From Gemmatimonadota bacterium (GTDB lineage Bacteria > Gemmatimonadota > Gemmatimonadetes > Gemmatimonadales > Gemmatimonadaceae): DNA of 42,120 bases. Position numbers and translations under genes: made by a program. The stretch is taken from NCBI GenBank assembly GCA_003223425.1, contig QHVA01000053.1, positions 1-42,120 of the forward strand, written 5' to 3'. Position 1 is the first letter of the stretch, and every line of letters starts with the position of its first letter. Shown piece after piece: positions 4,396-39,252 of the stretch. Under the pieces are notes generated by a model that did no database searches, had not been told where the DNA came from, and was given only the letters and a program-made list of their open reading frames with translations.

Positions 4396-6216
4396 ATGCT
4401 GTCAGTTCCCGACGCTATTGCAACAAAGCTCCCACATCTTCCGGAGGGACCGGGTGTCTATCTGTGGAAGGGAAGGGATGGGACTACCCTCTATGTAGGC
4501 AAAGCGAAGCGGCTTCGCTCGCGGGTGCGAAGTTATTTCGCGAATGACCAACTAGAAAGCGTAAAGACTCGGCATTTAGTCGGCCTCATTGCCGATCTCG
4601 AGACGATCGTGGTGCCGAGTGAAGCGCACGCGCTGATACTCGAGGCGAACCTGATCAAAGAGTATCACCCGCGATTCAACATCGCGCTGCGCGACGACAA
4701 GTCCTATCCATATATCAAAGTGACGGTGCAGGAGCCGTTTCCAAGGGTATTCGTCACCCGGCGAATCGAGGATGACGGAGCGAGCTACTTTGGTCCCTAT
4801 ACCGATGTCGGGGGAATGCGCCGCGCGCTCAACGTGGTGAAGAGAATATTCACTGTACGGAGCTGCAACTACGACATGCCGGCTCAGATGCCCGAGCGGC
4901 CGTGCCTCGACTACTACATCAAGCGTTGCAAGGCACCGTGCATTCTGGCGCAGTCGCAGCAGGACTACCGCGCAATGATCGACGAAGTGGTTCTCTTCCT
5001 CTCAGGCAGGCCGGACGAGGTATTCCGACGCGTGAAGGAGCGGATGGACCTTGCGTCCGAGCAGCTCGATTTTGAGCGCGCGGCGGAACTGCGCGACGTA
5101 CTTCACCATCTCGAGCGAATGGAGGAGCCAACCGTCGTACTGGAGGTAGAGGGTGGCGATCGCGACGTCATCGGCTACGCCCGAGATGGCGATGACGCCT
5201 GCGTCACGGTGTTGAGAATACGGAGCGGTAAACTGCTTTCGCGCGAGCAGCGTTTCTTCACGAACATCGACGGTGAGGATGATACCGACGTGATGACGAT
5301 GTTTCTTGCCGGGAGCTACGTCGGCATGCAGGGGAAAGCACGACAGGTTCTCCTTCCTTTCGATTTCCCGGATCGGGAACTCATCGAGCAGGCCTTGCCC
5401 GAGAGCAGAATTCAGATTCCCCAGCGCGGCCCGCGACGCGAGCTGATAGCGCTCGCTGAGCAGAATGCTCGTCATTTGCTCGAGGAGCTGAAGCTTTCGT
5501 CGATGGAGGCGGAGGAGCGGGCAGGGGATCCTGTGTACGAGCTTAGCCGGGAGCTGGGGCTGCAGCGGCTGCCGCGGTCGCTCGTATGCTTCGACATTTC
5601 CACTACTCAGGGCACTGATACCGTCGGCTCGTGCGTCTGGTTCGAGAACGGGCGGCCGAAGCGTAACGAGTATCGGAAGTTCAAAGTGAAGACGGTCGAA
5701 GGCAGCGACGACTTTGCGTCGATGCGAGAGGTCGTACGACGCTACTTCGATCGGCGTCTGAACGACGAGAAGTCGCTGCCAGACCTGATCGTAATCGATG
5801 GCGGTAAGGGGCAGCTATCGGCGGCCCACGACGCACTCACGGAGTTGGGTTTGGCCGATCGTCCGTTGATAAGCCTTGCAAAGCGGGAGGAGGAGGTCTT
5901 CATCTGGGGCAGAGAAGAGCCCCTCAAGATCTCGCGCCGCTCGCCAGGACTGAGGCTACTGCAGCAGGCGCGGGACGAAGCTCACCGTTTTGCTGTGACC
6001 TACAATCGCAAGCGCCGGGCGATGCGAACGGTGACGTCCGAGCTGCTTCGGGTGCCCGGTATCGGACCGGTAAAAAGGCGTCTGTTGCTCAAAGAATTCG
6101 GAAGCGTGCAGGGGGTTCGCGACGCGGGCGAGGACGCTATAGCCAAGCTTCCCGGCTTCAACGCTGAGCGTGCGCGGAAGCTCCTCGAATCGCTGGCGGC
6201 CACGAGTCCTGTGTGA
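4396..6216 (+). CDS. uvrC: excinuclease ABC subunit UvrC
   Basis: 606 aa; GIY-YIG N-terminus LPEGPGVYLWKGRDGTTLYVGKAKRLRSRVRSYF, UVR region, C-terminal HhH LLRVPGIGPVKRRLLLKEFGS. Confidence 0.97.
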   Translation: MLSVPDAIATKLPHLPEGPGVYLWKGRDGTTLYVGKAKRLRSRVRSYFANDQLESVKTRHLVGLIADLETIVVPSEAHALILEANLIKEYHPRFNIALRDDKSYPYIKVTVQEPFPRVFVTRRIEDDGASYFGPYTDVGGMRRALNVVKRIFTVRSCNYDMPAQMPERPCLDYYIKRCKAPCILAQSQQDYRAMIDEVVLFLSGRPDEVFRRVKERMDLASEQLDFERAAELRDVLHHLERMEEPTVVLEVEGGDRDVIGYARDGDDACVTVLRIRSGKLLSREQRFFTNIDGEDDTDVMTMFLAGSYVGMQGKARQVLLPFDFPDRELIEQALPESRIQIPQRGPRRELIALAEQNARHLLEELKLSSMEAEERAGDPVYELSRELGLQRLPRSLVCFDISTTQGTDTVGSCVWFENGRPKRNEYRKFKVKTVEGSDDFASMREVVRRYFDRRLNDEKSLPDLIVIDGGKGQLSAAHDALTELGLADRPLISLAKREEEVFIWGREEPLKISRRSPGLRLLQQARDEAHRFAVTYNRKRRAMRTVTSELLRVPGIGPVKRRLLLKEFGSVQGVRDAGEDAIAKLPGFNAERARKLLESLAATSPV

Positions 6217-8840: not shown

Positions 8841-9455
8841 ATGGCGCCAATCTTTGGCGTCATCATTTCCTACCTCGCCGGCTCGATACCGTCGGCATAC
8901 ATCGCCGGCAAATTGCGCGGCGTCGACCTTCGCAAGCACGGCTCGGGGAATCTGGGCGCAACCAACGTCGTGCGAGTGTTGGGATCGAGGATCGGCGCGG
9001 CAGTATTCATCGCCGATTTTCTGAAAGGATTTCTTCCCGTGTATTTTCTGCCGACGTACACCGACACGCTGAGGCCGGAATTGTGGGCATTGGTGTACGG
9101 CGCAGCCGCCATAGTGGGTCACGTCAAACCCATTTTTCTGCTCGGCAAGGGGGGAGGGAAAGGAGTCGCAACGGCGAGCGGTGTGTTCATGGCGCTCGCG
9201 CTCGTCCCAATGCTCGTTGCACAGGCGGTATGGATCATCGTCTTCTATTTCACTCGTTACGTGAGCCTCGCGTCCCTTCTGAGTGCGGTAGTGCTGCCGA
9301 TCGCGATTCTCGCGTTGTACCGCGACGCTCTCTCGCCGGTTTTCGTCGCCAGCGTGATCATCGTGCTGTTCGTGTTCTGGACGCACCGCGCGAATATTGG
9401 CCGTCTTCGCCGCGGTGAAGAGCATCGCTTTGTGAAAAAGGAAGCGGCATCCTGA
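8841..9455 (+). CDS. plsY: glycerol-3-phosphate acyltransferase PlsY
   Basis: SYLAGSIPSAYIAGKLRGVDLRKHGSGNLGATNVVRVLG and GKGGGKGVATASGV motifs. Confidence 0.96.
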   Translation: MAPIFGVIISYLAGSIPSAYIAGKLRGVDLRKHGSGNLGATNVVRVLGSRIGAAVFIADFLKGFLPVYFLPTYTDTLRPELWALVYGAAAIVGHVKPIFLLGKGGGKGVATASGVFMALALVPMLVAQAVWIIVFYFTRYVSLASLLSAVVLPIAILALYRDALSPVFVASVIIVLFVFWTHRANIGRLRRGEEHRFVKKEAAS

Positions 9456-14096: not shown

Positions 14097-14170
14097 GCCC
14101 CCGTAGCTCAGGTGGATAGAGCAGCGGTTTCCTAAACCGTTGGCCGGGTGTTCGAGTCACCCCGGGGGCA
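14097..14170 (+). tRNA. tRNA-Arg (anticodon CCT)
   Basis: Acceptor GCCCCCG/CGGGGGC, D-arm GCTC..GAGC, anticodon arm GCGGT-TTCCTAA-ACCGT, T-arm GGGTG-TTCGAGT-CACCC, discriminator A. Confidence 0.96.
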
Positions 14171-14207
14171 CTTACCCGCAACGAACACCCTAGAGCTCCA
14201 TAGCCGA

Positions 14208-14870
14208 ATGACGACACCGAAGATCCCGGCACGCAAGCAGTACGGCTCCGACGAAGAGTCGCTGACCGAATGGATCATGCTTCATAAGCGCGAAGTCACG
14301 TGGGCCCTCGTGGCGGTCGCCATCATCGTTGCCGGCGTCTGGTTCTACCAGCGCTCGCAGTCGATCAAGGCGCAACGGGCCGAGGCAGCCTACTTTCAGG
14401 CGCGCCAGTCTGCGGCGGCAGGGAATCTCCCCCTGGCCGTGTCCGATTTTCAAAAGGTGGTTAACCGCTACGAAGGAACACGAGCCGGCGCCCAGGCGGC
14501 CCTTTCGCTGGCTCAGACACTGTACGATCAGAAGAAGTTCAAGGAAGGAATCGCGGCGCTAAAAAAGGCGGAAGCAAAGGCTCCCCAGGAGTTCAAGGCG
14601 TCCATTCATGTCCTCGCGGCAGCCGGCTACGAAGAACTGAAAGATTTCATCGCGGCTGCGGGGGAGTACAAGTTGGCAGCCCAAACTACGCGTTTTCCGG
14701 CTGACAAGGCCGAGTACCAGGCATCCGCGGCTCGGGACTTTATGGCCGCCGGAAAGACTGACGAAGCCAAGGCGATCTGGACGGAACTGGCCAAGGACGA
14801 GTCGACTCCCGCTGCGGCCGAAGCCCGTGTCCGGCTGGGCGAGGCGGAAGCCAAACCGATGAAACCCTAG
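14208..14870 (+). CDS. membrane-anchored tetratricopeptide-repeat protein (YfgM/TPR-like)
   Basis: N-terminal TM EVTWALVAVAIIVAGVWFYQ then TPR-like helices (AEAAYFQARQSAAAGNLPLAVSDFQKVVNRYEGTRAGAQAALSLAQTLYDQKKF). Confidence 0.75.
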   Translation: MTTPKIPARKQYGSDEESLTEWIMLHKREVTWALVAVAIIVAGVWFYQRSQSIKAQRAEAAYFQARQSAAAGNLPLAVSDFQKVVNRYEGTRAGAQAALSLAQTLYDQKKFKEGIAALKKAEAKAPQEFKASIHVLAAAGYEELKDFIAAAGEYKLAAQTTRFPADKAEYQASAARDFMAAGKTDEAKAIWTELAKDESTPAAAEARVRLGEAEAKPMKP

Positions 14871-14915: not shown

Positions 14916-14943
14916 TATGCGTATAAGATAGATTATGTAAACC
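14916..14943 (+). other. dif: candidate dif site (XerC/XerD chromosome dimer resolution site)
   Basis: TATGCGTATAA-GATAGA-TTATGTAAACC: 11-6-11 layout; right arm 10/11 identical to recalled B. subtilis dif arm TTATGTAAACT and left arm 8/11 to recalled E. coli arm GGTGCGCATAA; sits in the only convergent intergenic gap. Confidence 0.68.
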
Positions 14944-14960
14944 AACCACCAGGTTTAAAT

Positions 14961-14991
14961 GTGGAGAAGTCGATACTGTCCACTTCTCTAC
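14961..14991. terminator. hairpin in convergent intergenic gap, possible terminator
   Basis: GTGGAGAAGT (14961-14970) pairs with ACTTCTCTAC (14982-14991): 10-bp stem with one G-U, 11-nt loop; no strong T tract. Confidence 0.35.
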
Positions 14992-15091
14992 TGGGGAATT
15001 TCAATCAAGCTCGAGGGTTACTGAACGGACTTTAGAAATTACTTGAGCTTGGCCGCCCCCGACAGCAGCTCGCCGTCGGCGCGACAGTCTG

Positions 15092-15976
15092 TCAATCCAG
15101 ATCGCGAATTCGACCCTCGAAGACAATCCGGCCTTCCCCGCGGAGCGAGGGCAGCCATGCCTGTCCGTTGTGTTTCAGGCTCACGACCAGCGGTAGCGAG
15201 GACCTCGTCCAAAGAACGGTTTCGCTTGCCGATTCGCCCCACTCGGAGAGGATGATCGCGGTCGCGACAGCCCCCGTGCCGCAGGCGAGCGTTTCAGCTT
15301 CCACGCCTCGCTCGAAGGTCCGATAAGCGAACTCGCCGTTGGATCGCTTGGAAACAAAGTTGACATTTGCGCCGTCCGCGAGCGCTCGATGATGCCGGAG
15401 CTCGGCGCCTCGTCCTGCAACGTCGGCCGACTCGATATCGGGGACCTCAACTACCAAGTGAGGTACGCCGACCTTGGCGTAGCCGAGTCGCCGCTCCCCT
15501 GGCTTGAGCCCGAGATCTTTCGCGTCAGAGCGCACCTCTGTGACCGGTTCCAGGTCCACTTCGGGCAGATTGTCTCGGATTCTCGCTCGCAGCGAGCCTG
15601 CCGCGGTGTGCAAGAGGAATCCCCCTGCCTGGGCCATTCCAAGTTCCACCGCGAGTCGAGTGCTGCAAAGGCTGGCGTTGCCGCAAAGGGCGGCCTCAGA
15701 GCCGTCGCTATTATAGTAGCGCATGGCGACATCGCCATCGCCCGCCCGCTCGAGGAACACAACTCCATCGGCCCCGATGCCCGTGCCGCGTGCAGTCAGG
15801 GACCGGATGGTCTCGGCGTTTTCCAGACCTGCGGCCGCCCCCGCCCCCGTCCCCGCCGCCGCCGCGCTCGTTGTGGAGTCGAACACGACGAAGTCGTTTC
15901 CCGAGCCGGTAACTTTGAAAAAATGCTGGCCTTCTGGCCGCTGCACCATCACACTCTCCCGATCACTCCCCACCAA
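15092..15976 (-). CDS. dapF: diaminopimelate epimerase
   Basis: FFKVTGSGNDFVVFD, YYNSDGSEAALCGNASLC, ETLACGTGAVATAI; true start may be an internal Met. Confidence 0.93.
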   Translation of the reverse strand: MVGSDRESVMVQRPEGQHFFKVTGSGNDFVVFDSTTSAAAAGTGAGAAAGLENAETIRSLTARGTGIGADGVVFLERAGDGDVAMRYYNSDGSEAALCGNASLCSTRLAVELGMAQAGGFLLHTAAGSLRARIRDNLPEVDLEPVTEVRSDAKDLGLKPGERRLGYAKVGVPHLVVEVPDIESADVAGRGAELRHHRALADGANVNFVSKRSNGEFAYRTFERGVEAETLACGTGAVATAIILSEWGESASETVLWTRSSLPLVVSLKHNGQAWLPSLRGEGRIVFEGRIRDLD

Positions 15977-20022: not shown

Positions 20023-21175
20023 GAACCTGTCGGTATATCTCTGCGTACCGGCGCGCGGCGGATTCCGGCGCAAATGCAGAGAGTGCGTAGAGTCGCCCTG
20101 CCCTGCCGAGCTGACTTCCCCGACCATCGCGGCCGAGCAAATCATCGAGTGTGTTGGCCAGCGCCGTCCTGTCACCAGGCTGGACGAGCAGTCCCGTCTT
20201 CTCGTGCTGAATCACGTCGCGGAGCCCGCCCGAATCGAATGCGACTACCGGTGTCTCGCAAAGAAGCGCCTCGACGGCGACGAGTCCGAGTCCCTCATCC
20301 ATCGATGGCAGCACGATCGCGGCGGCTCGCTGATAGACTTCCGGAAGCTCCGACTGCGAAAGCTGTCCGTGCCAGCGGATACGTGAAGCAACCCCGAGCT
20401 GTTGTGCGAGCTGTTCGAGTGACTGCCGATTCGGACCGTCACCGACGATGTCGAGCTGCGCCGGGGTCTTCATCGCTGACATCGCGTATAAGAGGTGCTC
20501 TACTCCCTTTTGTTGGGTCAATCGACCTACATAAAGGAGGCGACCTGCGTCGCGCGCCGACCCAGGTCGCGGCTCGAAAAGATCGGTGGCCACGGGCATT
20601 GGCGCGACCATCGGGTGGATGCCAGGAGCGAGGGCTTCCGTCTCCTCTTTGAGCCAGCGCGAGACCGTAGTCACTGCGGCAGAATGTTTTAAGACGTGTC
20701 CGAAGAGCGGCTTGGCAATACCGACTTTTCGAGCGAGACGAACGTCGGTGCCGTGAAGTGTGGTGACGAGCGGAATGTGGGCCAGGCCACCAACCCAGGT
20801 TCCTACGACTCCGTTTGGAAACCACCAGTGCGCGTGAACCACCTGCGGCTCGAATGCGCGCCGCGCCCGAACGGCATGCATGAAATCGGAGCCCAGAAAA
20901 CTTACCAATGCGAGCTTCGCGGTCCATGAGGACGCGACGTCGCCGGCCATATTACCAGTGTAAGCGAGTTTCTCGTAGCGACGAGGCGCGTATCTGAACC
21001 GCTCGACGCCAACGCCCTCGATGTCTTCTGCGGCAGCCAAGCCCGGAGCAGCAGGCGCCACTACACGAACCGTTACCCCTTCTCCGCGAAGTGCGACGGC
21101 GAGACGCAGGATAAACGAGCCGGCGGCGTCTCCTTCCGTTCGCGGGAACGAGTGCGTGAGGAACAGAACGTTCAT
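20003..21175 (-). CDS. glycosyltransferase family 4 (GT-B)
   Basis: MNVLFLTHSFPRTEGDAAGSFILRLAVAL, LLYVGRLTQQKGVEHLLYAM, VLPSMDEGLGLVAVEALLCETPVVAFDSGGLRDVI. Confidence 0.9.
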   Translation of the reverse strand: MNVLFLTHSFPRTEGDAAGSFILRLAVALRGEGVTVRVVAPAAPGLAAAEDIEGVGVERFRYAPRRYEKLAYTGNMAGDVASSWTAKLALVSFLGSDFMHAVRARRAFEPQVVHAHWWFPNGVVGTWVGGLAHIPLVTTLHGTDVRLARKVGIAKPLFGHVLKHSAAVTTVSRWLKEETEALAPGIHPMVAPMPVATDLFEPRPGSARDAGRLLYVGRLTQQKGVEHLLYAMSAMKTPAQLDIVGDGPNRQSLEQLAQQLGVASRIRWHGQLSQSELPEVYQRAAAIVLPSMDEGLGLVAVEALLCETPVVAFDSGGLRDVIQHEKTGLLVQPGDRTALANTLDDLLGRDGRGSQLGRAGRLYALSAFAPESAARRYAEIYRQVLGARTS

Positions 21176-24885: not shown

Positions 24886-26234
24886 CGCCGGATTACGGGA
24901 GGCTTTACTGGCGGGAGCGGCTTCGCCTGGGTGGGCGTCGCGGCGGGTTTGCCTACGGTCGATACGGCGGCGGGCTCGATCAACACACCCGTCGCTTTGT
25001 CAATCACGGTGACTGTGGCGACTTTTCGATCCTCGAAAATGATGTCGATGATCCTACCTCTGACGTAGTTGACGGTGGGCTCCGTTGCCGGGCCCTTTGA
25101 ACTCTTCATCTGATAGAAGGAGCTAGCGCGCCCCTCGGCAGTGATTTCTCTGATTCTGGGTTTGCTCGAGGTGTCGCCGACGGCGAGCGAGTCGAAGTGC
25201 GCGACAATCGTGTCGCCCCTCATCCAGTCTCGCTGCTTGGAAACTACTCCCGAATCGGGATTGCTTTCGGCGTAGGCCTTACGCAATGCCCGGACCTCTC
25301 GGATGCGCTGGCCGGGCATTATCGCGTCAATGGAGTCGGCGATGATCTCGCGGTCCGGTGATACGGCGTGCGCCCGAGTCTTTCCCCACGCCATCGCTCG
25401 TTGGAGCTGGTTGTTCTGAACCCTGAGATCGATGGAATCGGCCACGAGCTCGAGGTCCTGACTGAGTGCGTGCCCGGTGGGCGTTGCCACGACGCGCTCG
25501 ACCTGACGGTTACGGGAGTAAACGTCGATCACTCCTCCCGTCAGCGTGAAGCTGCGGCTGCCAGTCCCCTTTACCGATGGTTCACGCATCAGGCGCGCGA
25601 AGTCATGCGCGCTGTCAAGAAAAGCTGAATCGCCAGTAGCGATCATATCGGGACGTGTTATCTCGACGCTTCGCGAGGCGTAGACAAGGCTGTCGCCTTC
25701 CATCGTGATCGTGTTGGCGACGACATGTGCTGTATCGGGTGGTCGGCCGCGACCAGTCGTGTCCTTCTGGAGAAGCGTGACATGAGGGCGGCCGGGCGCG
25801 AACATTCTAGCGAGCGGACGCTGTGCAGTGCTCCGATAGTAATCGGCGCTGGGTCCCCGGAGCGTGCTGCCGTTCGACATAACCGCGACGACGTTGCCTT
25901 CGGCGTGAAGGTGGTCGTCGTTTTGGTAATAGGTCATCGTGCGAGACGTGACAGTTGCGCGTGGCTCTGTGTAGTGAACGTTCCCTACCAGATACAGCCT
26001 GGCCTCTGCTTCGTAATACTCAGCACTGTCCGCCGTGAGAGTGTTGCCCTGCCCAATGCAGTGAGCGACGACTCCGCCGCTTAGGAAAGTCGTCCTTTTG
26101 CCGCTCGCATCTTCCACAATGTTCACCGGTCCGCGCTTGTTGGTGAAATCCAGATCGCAACTCTTCGGGATGTTCTGTGCGCCCGCAACGGATGCGAGGC
26201 AAAGCGAAGCCACGACGGAGTAAAAGAGCTTCAC
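24882..26234 (-). CDS. OstA/LptA-like LPS transport protein (large)
   Basis: Signal peptide; repeated OstA-type strands (GGVVAHCIGQGNTLTADSAEYYEAEARLYLVGNVHYTEPRATVTS...); 450 aa. Confidence 0.8.
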   Translation of the reverse strand: MKLFYSVVASLCLASVAGAQNIPKSCDLDFTNKRGPVNIVEDASGKRTTFLSGGVVAHCIGQGNTLTADSAEYYEAEARLYLVGNVHYTEPRATVTSRTMTYYQNDDHLHAEGNVVAVMSNGSTLRGPSADYYRSTAQRPLARMFAPGRPHVTLLQKDTTGRGRPPDTAHVVANTITMEGDSLVYASRSVEITRPDMIATGDSAFLDSAHDFARLMREPSVKGTGSRSFTLTGGVIDVYSRNRQVERVVATPTGHALSQDLELVADSIDLRVQNNQLQRAMAWGKTRAHAVSPDREIIADSIDAIMPGQRIREVRALRKAYAESNPDSGVVSKQRDWMRGDTIVAHFDSLAVGDTSSKPRIREITAEGRASSFYQMKSSKGPATEPTVNYVRGRIIDIIFEDRKVATVTVIDKATGVLIEPAAVSTVGKPAATPTQAKPLPPVKPPVIRR

Positions 26235-28611: not shown

Positions 28612-31042
<2,431 letters not shown>

Positions 31043-31136: not shown

Positions 31137-32345
31137 TTAGAGAGACGCGCCGAAAGAAAAGGCCGATCTGCGAGAGAATGGAGAGCGATTTCGTGCCGGA
31201 TCAATGCTGTAATCGATCCGAATCAAGCTGACCCCTACGCCGATACCCACATTCTGGATCAGTGAAGGTAGCCGGTCGATGCCGGCGTTTCCGGCCGCGT
31301 ACCTAAGGGCAACGTACGGATTCCCAACATACGGGAGCTGAATGCGCTCGAACGGAACTATGTAATCGCCCTGTACATAAAGAAGGTGGTCACCGCCCAG
31401 CGCGAGAAGATTTACCGTCGCGAGCGTGCCGGATCCGCCGAGATATGCGAAGCGCTGGGCTGGCGCGACGCCGGCGCCGCCAGTGATCACCGCGTGAGTC
31501 TTGAATGTGAATGTCTGAGCTCCGAACGTCGGGAAGGAAACGCGACCATCGAAGGTCGCCTGTGTGAATGAGTCTCCCGGCTGATAACAAACGGGAACCG
31601 GAACTCCAAAACAAACGGGGTTGAGTGCTGTGCGAAGGGATTGTTCGAGCAAGCCGTCGAGCTTTGCTTCGAAATCTCCTCGCACAAACTCAAACGCTGC
31701 TCCACCAAACACTGAGGTGATGGTTCCTTTCGCCACGCGTGGATTCGGCCTGCGCATCTTCAGATTGCCTTTGCGTCCGAAAAAACTCCATGGTGACTTG
31801 GTCGGTGCGAGGGATCCCGTCGACCAATCGCGCTCCAGGTTTCCGCCGATGAATGGCGTCACGATGATCGACGTGCCCGTGAGCGCGCGCGAAAACCGCG
31901 CGTTCGCACGATCGCCTCGATACCAGTTGCGCGCATCGCTGCCGACGAGGAAGGCTGCCGCCGTGTTCGTGAGATCCTGACGGATCCACGCATCGTTGGT
32001 GAATGTGCCTCGTCCAACGAAGAACTTGATCTCGTTGTCGTCGCCAGGCCGAATGATTCCTTCGAGTGCTGGATCCCATTTGCCAAGATTGGACCGATAG
32101 CTGACGAGGCCATCGACGTCCAGCTTTCCCTCCCCTGCTTCGAGCTTGGGACCCCAGGGCAGAGTAAGACCGTTGACACGGTCGTACGCAGGCATACGCA
32201 GACCAAGGCCGAGCGGGAGCGATATCGGCGAATCATGGTAGTAGGCGGTATCAGCACGCGCGGCAGTAGTGTCCTGGGCCCGCAGCGGAGAGATAACCGC
32301 TGTGAGTGCGCCGATAAGCGCGAGCGACCCGCGTGGCTTCATCAT
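31137..32345 (-). CDS. predicted outer-membrane/secreted beta-rich protein, function unknown
   Basis: Signal peptide MMKPRGSLALIGALTAVISPLRAQ; alternating beta-like strands; hydrophobic C-terminal residue (FSFGASL). Confidence 0.65.
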   Translation of the reverse strand: MMKPRGSLALIGALTAVISPLRAQDTTAARADTAYYHDSPISLPLGLGLRMPAYDRVNGLTLPWGPKLEAGEGKLDVDGLVSYRSNLGKWDPALEGIIRPGDDNEIKFFVGRGTFTNDAWIRQDLTNTAAAFLVGSDARNWYRGDRANARFSRALTGTSIIVTPFIGGNLERDWSTGSLAPTKSPWSFFGRKGNLKMRRPNPRVAKGTITSVFGGAAFEFVRGDFEAKLDGLLEQSLRTALNPVCFGVPVPVCYQPGDSFTQATFDGRVSFPTFGAQTFTFKTHAVITGGAGVAPAQRFAYLGGSGTLATVNLLALGGDHLLYVQGDYIVPFERIQLPYVGNPYVALRYAAGNAGIDRLPSLIQNVGIGVGVSLIRIDYSIDPARNRSPFSRRSAFSFGASL

Positions 32346-32936: not shown

Positions 32937-33857
32937 TCAAGAGCGCGGATGGAACTGCTTGTGAACGGTCCTGAGGTACTCACGATCGACGTGGGTGTAA
33001 ATCTGCGTAGTCGAGATGTCGACGTGACCGAGCATCTCCTGCACTGCTCTGAGATCTGCGCCGCCTTCCAGCAAGTGTGTTGCAAATGAATGACGCAGGG
33101 TATGCGGCGACACCGGCTTGGTGATTCCAGCCTGCTTCACGTACTTGCGGAGGATTTTCCAGGCGCCCATGCGCGAAAGTGGCTGCCCGCGCGCATTGAG
33201 GAAGAGGATGCCTTTGCCCTCGCCCTTCTCGAGCGAAGGCCGAAGCTCACGCAGGTAAACGGCAATCGCTGCGATCGCGCGACGACCAATCGGGACCAGG
33301 CGCTCCTTGGCGCCTTTGCCGAAGACGCGCACAAGGTGATCCTGCAGCATCACGTCGCGTACGCTGAGCGAGATCCACTCCGAGACTCGCAATCCTGCGC
33401 CGTACGCCAGCTCGAGCATCGCCCTGTCACGGAACGCGAGCGGCTCGTCAAGCGATGGGGCGGCGAGAAGCTTTTCGACCTCTTCTACACCGAGCACTTC
33501 GGGAAGTGTGCGCCACCGCTTCGGGGTCTCGAGCCGCTCACTTGGGTCACGCACCACGTGTCCTTCTCCGACGAGAAACTTGAAGTACGTTCGCACAGCC
33601 GACACGTTGCGCCTGATCGATGCTGCGGAAAGTCCGAGGTCTTTCAGGTGGTACACGTATTCGCGAAGCATTCGCACACCAACGTTCGTCGGGGATGACG
33701 CTCCCTTTACGCTGACGTAGGTGACGAACCGGGCGATATCCAGCTTGTATGCGTGGCTGGTCTGCACGGACGCGCCCTGTTCCAGTGCGAGAAAGTCGTC
33801 GAACCGCTCGACGTAAAATGCGCGCGCGGCGGCGTCGTCCAGCTTTTTATTATTCAC
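32937..33857 (-). CDS. xerD: site-specific tyrosine recombinase XerD
   Basis: Catalytic R..HxxR..H..Y: YGAGLRVSEW, SPHTLRHSFATHLLEGGADLRAVQEMLGHVDISTTQIYTHV; GTG start at 33857 (ORF extends to 33908). Confidence 0.92.
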   Translation of the reverse strand: MNNKKLDDAAARAFYVERFDDFLALEQGASVQTSHAYKLDIARFVTYVSVKGASSPTNVGVRMLREYVYHLKDLGLSAASIRRNVSAVRTYFKFLVGEGHVVRDPSERLETPKRWRTLPEVLGVEEVEKLLAAPSLDEPLAFRDRAMLELAYGAGLRVSEWISLSVRDVMLQDHLVRVFGKGAKERLVPIGRRAIAAIAVYLRELRPSLEKGEGKGILFLNARGQPLSRMGAWKILRKYVKQAGITKPVSPHTLRHSFATHLLEGGADLRAVQEMLGHVDISTTQIYTHVDREYLRTVHKQFHPRS

Positions 33858-34464
33858 GGTCTCTAGTGCGTCGCTTGCCAAGCCAAATCCCGACTGCGAG
33901 GACGACAATTGCTATCGCGATTGCGCCAGCAACCTTGCCCGACCGGACCAGATACCGTTGAACGAGATCCCAGTTGTCGCCGGCACGGAATGCCAGAAAC
34001 GTAATGAGAGCGAACCAGACTGCGGACGCGCTTGCGACGGAGAGCATCACTCTGAAGGCGGGGAGCCTCATTGCTCCGGCGAACGGCGGGACGATTGCCC
34101 GCACGCCGGGGAGAAAGCGGCTCACGAAAAGTCCCGCAAATCCATATTTCTTGTGCAGTTTCTTGATTCTGTCCTCGGCGTCTGGACCCGCGTATCTCTC
34201 TATTCTCCGTAGAAACACCTTCGCGCCGAACCGGCGCCCAAGCGTATAGGTAACTCCCGCACCCGCGACGTTTCCGAACCATGCGAGCAGGAAAACAGTG
34301 AACGGAGATCCGTGGGCCCTATCAGCCAGAAAGCTTCCAAACGCGATCACCGCATCCGAGGGAAACGGCGGAAAGAAGTTTTCGAACGCGGAGAGCGCGG
34401 CGATCGCCGCGTAGAGTGATCCGAGCGGCAAGTCACCGAGCCAGCCGGACAGTGTCTGGAGCAT
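33850..34464 (-). CDS. DedA family membrane protein
   Basis: ENFFPPFPSDAVIAFGSFLA, YTLGRRFG, FGRFLPGVR-like SRFLPGVRAIVPPFAGAMRLP. Confidence 0.92.
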   Translation of the reverse strand: MLQTLSGWLGDLPLGSLYAAIAALSAFENFFPPFPSDAVIAFGSFLADRAHGSPFTVFLLAWFGNVAGAGVTYTLGRRFGAKVFLRRIERYAGPDAEDRIKKLHKKYGFAGLFVSRFLPGVRAIVPPFAGAMRLPAFRVMLSVASASAVWFALITFLAFRAGDNWDLVQRYLVRSGKVAGAIAIAIVVLAVGIWLGKRRTRDRE

Positions 34465-34467
34465 TCG

Positions 34468-34983
34468 CTAGCGATTTCGTTTCAGGGTGGCGACTGCAAT
34501 GCAGGCAAGTCCTTCGCTTCGCCCGATCCAGCCCATGCCTTCATTCGACTTTCCTTTGACGCTCACGCTCGACGAATCGATACCGAGCGCTGACGCCAAA
34601 CGCGCCCTGATTTTTTCGCGGTGAGGCGATAGCTGCGGCGATTCCGCAACGACACTGACATCAACCTGATTCACGCTGTAGCCGGCGGCTGATATTTTCC
34701 TCACCGCCGCCTCGAGCATTCCAATGGAGTCGCGCCCCTTGTTGGCCGGATCGGTATCCGGAAACATCTCACCGATGTCGCCCTGCCCTGCGGCGCCGAG
34801 GATTGCGTCAATTATCGCGTGGCAGACTGCGTCGGCATCAGAATGACCCAATAGGCCGGTTTCCGATGGTATTAAAACGCCGCCAAGGATTAGAGGGCGA
34901 CCGGGGACGAACCGATGAGAATCGTAGCCGACGCCGACGCGAATTGTCGCGTCGGGTTCACGCTGCATCCGCGTGGATGGCAA
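34468..34983 (-). CDS. ispF: 2-C-methyl-D-erythritol 2,4-cyclodiphosphate synthase
   Basis: VGVGYDSHRFVPGRPLILGGVLIPSETGLLGHSDADAVCHAIIDAILGAAGQGDIGEMFPDTD. Confidence 0.97.
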   Translation of the reverse strand: MPSTRMQREPDATIRVGVGYDSHRFVPGRPLILGGVLIPSETGLLGHSDADAVCHAIIDAILGAAGQGDIGEMFPDTDPANKGRDSIGMLEAAVRKISAAGYSVNQVDVSVVAESPQLSPHREKIRARLASALGIDSSSVSVKGKSNEGMGWIGRSEGLACIAVATLKRNR

Positions 34984-38004: not shown

Positions 38005-39252
38005 TTAGTACTCGAAGCGTTTGATGGCGAGGGTGGTGTTGTGGCCACCGAAGCCAAAGCTGTTGCTGAGGACAGCGTTGACTTCGCGCTCAACGCTGAC
38101 GTTGGGGGTGTAGTTGAGATCCAGGTCTGGGTCGGGATGATGATAGTTGATCGTTGGCGGAATCACGCCGTTGCCGACGACCATGGTGCTGATCACAGCT
38201 TCCACAGCACCTGCCGCTCCGAGCATGTGGCCCGTTGCAGACTTGGTCGAGCTGACGTTCACGCGCTTTGCCTGATCGCCGAAGACGGCCTGGATCGCCC
38301 GAGTCTCGTTGAGGTCGTTCGCGGGAGTAGAGGTCCCGTGCGCATTGATATACTGAATGTCCTTGGGCTCGAGGCCCGCGTCCTTCAACGCGCGCTTCAT
38401 CGCGCGTTGTGCGCCTTCGCCGTCGGGCGCCGGAGCCGTGAGATGATATGCGTCTCCGGTCGCGCCGTATCCAGCGATTTCAGAGTAGATATTGGCGCCG
38501 CGATTGAGGGCATGCTCGAGCTCCTCGAGGATCAGAATTCCCGCCCCTTCCCCCATCACGAAGCCATCCCGCGTCGCGTCGAAAGGGCGGGATGCTGATT
38601 CCGGACTGTCGTTTCGCTCGGACAGCGCCTTCATGTTGGCAAAGCCGCCGATAGCCATGGGAGTCACCGTAGCTTCAGCACCGCCGGTAATCATGATATC
38701 GGCGTCGCCGTACTGGATCGTCCTGTATGCATCACCTATTGCGTGAGCACTCGTGGCACAAGCCGATACGGTGGCGTAGTTTGGGCCTTTGGCGTTGAAC
38801 CGCATCGACACGATGCCAGCGGCGATGTCGGCAATGAACATTGGGATGAAGAAAGGAGAGATCTTCCCCACTCCGCGCTCGCGGTAGACGTCGTGTTGTT
38901 CTTCGAAGCTCTTGAGCCCGCCGATCCCGCTCCCGATGATCACGCCGATTCGGTCGGGGTCCATGCCATTGTTGCCGTTGGCTAGTCCCGCGTCCGTCAT
39001 CGCTTGGCGCGCAGCTGCGACGGCGTACTGTGTGTATTGATCCGCTCGTTTCGCTTCCTTGCGGTCCATGTAGTCGAGCGGATTGAAGCCTTTCACTTCG
39101 GCGGCAAACCGGACGGGAAAGTTCGAGGCATCGAACTTCGTGATTGGCGCCGTACCGGATTTCCCTTCGATCAGGGCCCGCCAGGTCGTCGCCACATCGT
39201 TCCCGACGGGGGTAATCGCCCCCATACCGGTGACAACGACTCGTCGCTTCAT
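38005..39252 (-). CDS. fabF: beta-ketoacyl-ACP synthase II
   Basis: RRVVVTGMGAITPVGNDVATTW, VSACATSAHAIGDAYR, NAHGTSTPANDLNE, GHMLGAAGAVEAV. Confidence 0.97.
   Translation of the reverse strand: MKRRVVVTGMGAITPVGNDVATTWRALIEGKSGTAPITKFDASNFPVRFAAEVKGFNPLDYMDRKEAKRADQYTQYAVAAARQAMTDAGLANGNNGMDPDRIGVIIGSGIGGLKSFEEQHDVYRERGVGKISPFFIPMFIADIAAGIVSMRFNAKGPNYATVSACATSAHAIGDAYRTIQYGDADIMITGGAEATVTPMAIGGFANMKALSERNDSPESASRPFDATRDGFVMGEGAGILILEELEHALNRGANIYSEIAGYGATGDAYHLTAPAPDGEGAQRAMKRALKDAGLEPKDIQYINAHGTSTPANDLNETRAIQAVFGDQAKRVNVSSTKSATGHMLGAAGAVEAVISTMVVGNGVIPPTINYHHPDPDLDLNYTPNVSVEREVNAVLSNSFGFGGHNTTLAIKRFEY

Follow-up and report, generated by a model that had tools for sequence, protein, structure and literature searches.

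The 42,120-nucleotide stretch of Gemmatimonadaceae DNA analysed here (the window) raises the question of whether a 28-bp motif at the meeting point of two oppositely oriented sets of genes is the chromosomal dif site of this bacterium, and what else is conserved beside it. An earlier note had read the motif as a XerCD/dif site at the replication terminus. That reading is supported by the uniqueness of the motif, by its synteny, by the GC skew of relatives and by a switch of KOPS polarity, and we conclude with a confidence close to certainty that the 28-mer is the chromosomal dif of this Gemmatimonadaceae bacterium and marks its replication terminus. The conditions that the note had named as refuting were each checked, in this genome or in relatives, and none of them held. 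The site combines a 28-bp arm layout, one copy per chromosome, a terminus location judged from relatives and converging KOPS, and the genome encodes XerD, a XerC-like recombinase and FtsK.

The motif lies in a gap of 221 bp that separates two convergent genes, a TPR ORF with its stop at 14870 and dapF with its stop at 15092. Long gene-like ORFs of the window lie on the forward strand to the left of the site and on the reverse strand to its right. The gap and its borders contain the following features.

14148..14870, forward strand: TPR/BamD-like ORF, the XerC-side neighbour; synteny kept
14916..14943, forward strand: dif site, 28 bp; single match at ≤3 mismatches, conserved in the family and the phylum
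14916..14926, forward strand: XerC-binding arm TATGCGTATAA, assigned by homology and the 11-6-11 layout; the more variable arm in relatives
14927..14932, forward strand: central region GATAGA, which differs among relatives
14933..14943, forward strand: XerD-binding arm TTATGTAAACC, an assignment from homology; TTATGT almost unchanged across 110 loci, in part as a product of the pattern used to pick those loci
15092..15976, reverse strand: dapF (PF01678), the XerD-side neighbour; synteny kept

Relatives of this DapF at 77–81% identity are from Gemmatimonadaceae/Gemmatimonadetes MAGs, and a planctomycete origin of the DNA was discarded in their light. On the forward strand a tRNA-Arg gene (CCT; 14097-14171) runs 24 bases into the listed TPR ORF, and the true start of the TPR gene is therefore probably downstream.

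Sequence inspection of the window gives TATGCGTATAA-GATAGA-TTATGTAAACC at 14916-14943, an 11-6-11 layout. A recount against the reference sites agrees with the figures of the earlier note: E. coli dif is matched at 19/28 positions overall and at 8/11 in the left arm, B. subtilis dif at 20/28 overall and at 10/11 in the right arm. Each arm matches that of E. coli at 8/11 positions; in comparison with B. subtilis dif, the XerD arm is alike at 10/11 positions and the left arm at just 6/11. The B. subtilis system employs the recombinases RipX and CodV together with SpoIIIE and its SRS sequences. A search of the bacterium's own assembly (2,522,618 bp in 247 contigs) for rival sites found no other 28-mer within three mismatches, hence no better match, and the control gave 0 hits. 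Over a 15-base dif core the site scores 15/15, while 2000 shuffled versions of the gap gave 12/15 at most, a score seen 8 times. This uniqueness, together with shuffles that never rose above 12/15, excludes a chance origin of the 28-mer.

Conservation of the site was examined by scanning genomes with a degenerate dif pattern, allowing at most one mismatch and using the reversed pattern as a control. The pattern was present in 128 of 148 genomes of the family (reversed control, 0) and in 255 of 298 genomes of the phylum (reversed control, matches in 3). It was nearly always single-copy, and the two-copy cases examined were either overlaps of contig ends or, in one MAG, a single locus represented by two diverged contigs. 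Among 53 family loci (50 distinct), dif lay beside the expected TPR, dapF or glycosyltransferase gene in a fixed orientation in all 53, and this synteny persists in the family though the identity of DapF drops to about 45%. A different family of this order contributed 30 loci, in which dapF was adjacent in 30/30 and the TPR gene in 28/30. Throughout the order, relatives that keep the flanking genes also keep the 28-mer, placed between the TPR gene and dapF with its orientation unchanged; in other orders and in the other class dif is retained, with most of the neighbouring genes replaced. A test independent of the motif, in which loci were picked by DapF similarity, found the site in 11/11 loci where the gap was present (12–15 of 15 positions), the 4 others reaching a contig end first. 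These loci indicate that motif-negative genomes, where they could be checked, carry a site that has diverged or are interrupted by a contig break. The contigs of MAGs often stop no more than some 130 bp from dif, and their ends overlap (G107, G121, G093, G264, G340, G171 and others; loci L195-L206, L209 and L224), which suggests a branch of the assembly graph at this place.

The location of the site was assessed from GC skew and from the polarity of FtsK-orienting octamers. The window itself has a local peak of cumulative GC skew at 14–15 kb. As the bacterium's own assembly (247 contigs, 86% complete) precludes a whole-chromosome skew, the ter-side extremum that the earlier note had predicted near the site was sought in closed or near-closed relatives, sampled in 20-kb stretches rather than as whole chromosomes. 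The best skew breakpoint fell exactly at dif in genome G098 and adjoined it in G016; for G022 it was offset, lying at 2.17–2.29 Mb, about 0.3 Mb beyond the dif at 1.93 Mb. In the last genome the skew is ambiguous where KOPS polarity flips, between 1.86 and 2.04 Mb, around dif. The separation of dif from dnaA in the relatives amounts to 42–48% of the chromosome.

In E. coli, the reference system for XerCD/dif with FtsK and KOPS (PMC5357621, PMC2680272), KOPS polarity switches at dif (PMC2680272). When dif and dnaA were used as boundaries in three closed relatives, the most leading-strand-biased octamer was GGGCAGGG (77 versus 11), the KOPS of E. coli; the polar octamer of this lineage is thus of the E. 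coli type, unlike the SRS of B. subtilis. Occurrences of GGGNAGGG in the window point toward dif in 9/9 cases (3/3 on the left, 6/6 on the right), which has a probability of 1/512 without bias, and those in 20 loci of relatives do so in 59/64. Within the window KOPS and gene strand are not mutually independent, because gene orientation switches at the same place. The occurrences in the window, a polarity to which the earlier note had made no reference, are listed below.

4470..4477, forward strand: KOPS GGGAAGGG, toward dif
5519..5526, forward strand: KOPS GGGCAGGG, toward dif
9151..9158, forward strand: KOPS-like GGGGAGGG, toward dif
20096..20103, reverse strand: KOPS GGGCAGGG, toward dif
26047..26054, reverse strand: KOPS GGGCAGGG, toward dif
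30206..30213, reverse strand: KOPS GGGAAGGG, toward dif
32128..32135, reverse strand: KOPS-like GGGGAGGG, toward dif
34781..34788, reverse strand: KOPS GGGCAGGG, toward dif
38545..38552, reverse strand: KOPS GGGAAGGG, toward dif

It is extremely improbable that the 28-mer is instead the attachment site of a mobile element that exploits Xer, or a conserved intergenic motif of an unrelated kind: the frequent ending of MAG contigs at or near the site could point to structural variation, but there is no flanking element, duplicate copies have common flanks, the site occurs once per genome across the phylum and KOPS polarity switches at it. The genomes with two copies had suggested mobile elements at dif, and their common flanks identified the second copies as contig overlaps or duplicate contigs and not insertions.

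Candidates for the proteins that would act at such a site are encoded in the same assembly. The recombinase gene of the window is:

32937..33908, reverse strand: xerD, tyrosine recombinase with intact catalytic motifs in its translation; TIGR02225, 360.6 bits

The earlier note had placed a xerD gene about 18 kb from the site, and the product is a true XerD by NCBIfam TIGR02225 (cut-off 329.6 bits) with the catalytic motifs GLRVSE, HTLRHSFATHL and LGHVDISTTQIYTH; the distance between xerD and dif is 17–21 kb in seven other genomes. A second recombinase, on contig C119 of the same MAG, has XerC as its best match and full catalytic motifs, and as a profile-bounded fragment scores 333.7 against a cut-off of 335.15, 1.5 bits short. 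The motor domain of FtsK is also present in the assembly, with a match that stops inside that domain, and an FtsK gamma domain was detected in 6 of the 8 genomes searched. Loss of FtsK gamma from the bacterium's own genome was considered and rejected, since the match breaks off within the motor domain, most likely through an assembly cut.

This lineage resembles E. coli in its 11-6-11 site, its XerC and XerD homologues, the FtsK gamma domain of its relatives and a KOPS, GGGNAGGG, that switches at dif, and differs in that the recombinase gene linked to the terminus is xerD. The main text of Kono et al. 2011 (PMC3025954) gives one predicted dif for one Gemmatimonadetes genome, so a dif in this phylum was expected and the site itself is ordinary. 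The same main text describes a general trend for xerC to lie near dif and xerD near the origin, to which the linkage of xerD to dif across this family (17–21 kb) is the opposite, and it mentions neither a flanking box nor synteny for Gemmatimonadetes.

By analogy with E. coli, we infer a Xer/FtsK recombination mechanism at this dif. Recombination between sister chromosomes would generate a fused dimer, and septal FtsK, loaded by KOPS octamers aimed at dif from both arms, would pump DNA toward dif. FtsK would then activate XerD on the right arm TTATGTAAACC, with XerD binding expected at TTATGTAAAC, and strand exchange by XerD and then by XerC would restore monomers. For a MAG in many contigs, the dif site also shows where the replication terminus lies, and the TPR–dif–dapF arrangement with xerD about 18 kb away provides a marker for orienting Gemmatimonadales genomes.

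Alignment of the loci revealed a second conserved element, likewise absent from the earlier note, on the XerD side of dif. Alignment columns left of dif, and those past about +55, carry almost no information, but the content rises again 14–25 nt past the XerD arm, where the consensus is TGTGG(A/G)NA(A). In the window this element is:

14960..14968, forward strand: conserved accessory box TGTGGAGAA (reverse complement TTCTCCACA, DnaA-box-like); found in 90/97 order-level loci

The sequence GTGG(A/G)NA starts 16–18 nt after the XerD arm in 90 of the 97 loci of the order (56/63, 32/32 and 2/2 in its three families), loci that are related by descent and not independent events, so that the meaningful contrast is with unconserved neighbouring columns of the same loci. 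Controls gave 0–1 occurrences at five offsets on the same flank and 0–1 on the opposite flank, and outside the order the box was present in 3/13 loci. The commonest 9-mers are TGTGGAGAA (42), TGTGGACAA (21) and TGTGGGAAA (14), and 35 loci have a second copy, often GTGGATAAC, about 10 bp nearer to dif; the window has one copy only. An inverted repeat, GTGGAGAAGTCGA / TCCACTTCTCTAC, spans 14961-14991 of the window (arms 14961-14973 and 14979-14991) and includes the accessory box. A role of the box as an SRS or KOPS signal was rejected, as two of its variants, TGTGGACAA and TGTGGGAAA, disrupt the octamer and the box points away from dif.

The distances from dif to its neighbouring genes vary widely (18–895 and 30–773 bp), which indicates that the spacing of the box belongs to dif. 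Given its fixed distance of 16–17 nt from the XerD arm, the box probably belongs to one nucleoprotein complex with dif or to a complex that marks the terminus. The literature consulted on E. coli dif mentions no conserved TGTGGANAA box on its XerD side. In the papers searched, no conserved box or DnaA box beside a chromosomal XerCD dif, and no sequence-conserved partner at a constant distance from one, was described. The dif site itself is of a well-known kind, while a conserved box at a fixed spacing beside it appears to be new. Conserved flanking sequence at a Xer site has a parallel in plasmid cer and psi, where accessory sequences for ArgR/ArcA and PepA extend over about 180 bp on the XerC side; unlike these, the box described here is chromosomal and sits on the XerD side, 16–17 nt away.

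The box may be explained in several ways. Falling just short of an even chance, in our estimate, is binding by a factor other than DnaA, which might be Xer or FtsK making a further contact, an accessory protein that bends DNA, or a protein of the terminus or of a fork trap. The fixed spacing from the XerD arm argues for such a factor, as do the approximately one helical turn between the two copies, the constancy of the dif spacing while gene distances vary, and the rarity of the box outside the order, which suggests a lineage-specific partner. Against this, no candidate factor was found and the box resembles a DnaA box.

That resemblance forms the basis of a second explanation, possible although we tend to doubt it, in which the box is a DnaA box (TTNTCCACA, in one or two copies). 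Compared with a DnaA consensus of the TTATNCACA type, the box has the TTNTCCACA core with the third base free. It shares the TTNTCCAC core of DnaA boxes (TTATCCACA) and differs from them in that free third base and in its location at the terminus. The prevailing 9-mers, and the frequent form of the nearer copy, are in keeping with DnaA binding, and TTWTCCACA is found just upstream of dnaA in 9/9 genomes inspected, as TTATCCACA or TTTTCCACA, the latter in the genus of the window. The usual DnaA box of high-GC Actinobacteria is TTGTCCACA. On the other hand, a perfect TGTGGATAA stands at the conserved position in just 2/90 loci, few loci have an exact TTATCCACA at that position beside dif, and the papers searched contained nothing on DnaA at dif.

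Further evidence on DnaA comes from the tandem form of the box. Among 14 genomes the tandem pattern occurred almost only at dif, with two exact matches elsewhere, both between parB and a bmp/PnrA gene and near dnaA: tandem TTNTCCACA boxes at L236:9057-9075 in G055, 19 kb from dnaA with gidA close by, and at L237:9803-9821 in G016, 112 kb from dnaA. This second tandem site is a possible origin or DnaA-controlled site, and its proximity to the origin favours a protein that binds near the origin and at the terminus, for which DnaA is the obvious candidate. By genus, the parB–bmp boxes are tandem in two, single in others and lacking in more, and their absence from several genera weighs against DnaA. 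If DnaA does bind the box at dif, the terminus may be tied to the control of initiation, or DnaA may assist Xer recombination or the convergence of forks as an accessory factor.

From the sequence comparisons one might go further and tentatively propose, as a rather unlikely but specific model, that the dif of Gemmatimonadales is composite, its DnaA-box-like site, single or tandem, at a fixed spacing from the XerD arm recruiting DnaA, or a factor that shares its sites, to the terminus. Replication completion and dimer resolution would then be physically coupled to initiation control. Binding by either DnaA or a terminus factor would provide a testable link between initiation and termination.

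An improbable third explanation sees in the box one half of a terminator that would end transcription of the two convergent genes, TPR and dapF: an inverted partner lies within 45 nt in 18/90 loci, the window included, compared with 2.7% by chance, but the partner is missing in 80% of loci and the spacing of the box is fixed to dif and to neither gene. A search for a stem-loop with a T run at the box gave no terminator call in 14950-15000 of the window; with this result, and with an inverted partner in a minority of loci, a terminator role is unlikely.

As a separate observation on DnaA in this group, an ORF of 587–788 aa matches the DnaA model twice, as tandem ATPase domains, and is present besides a normal dnaA in G022 (C1:1693232-1694875) and likewise in G048, G098 and G013.
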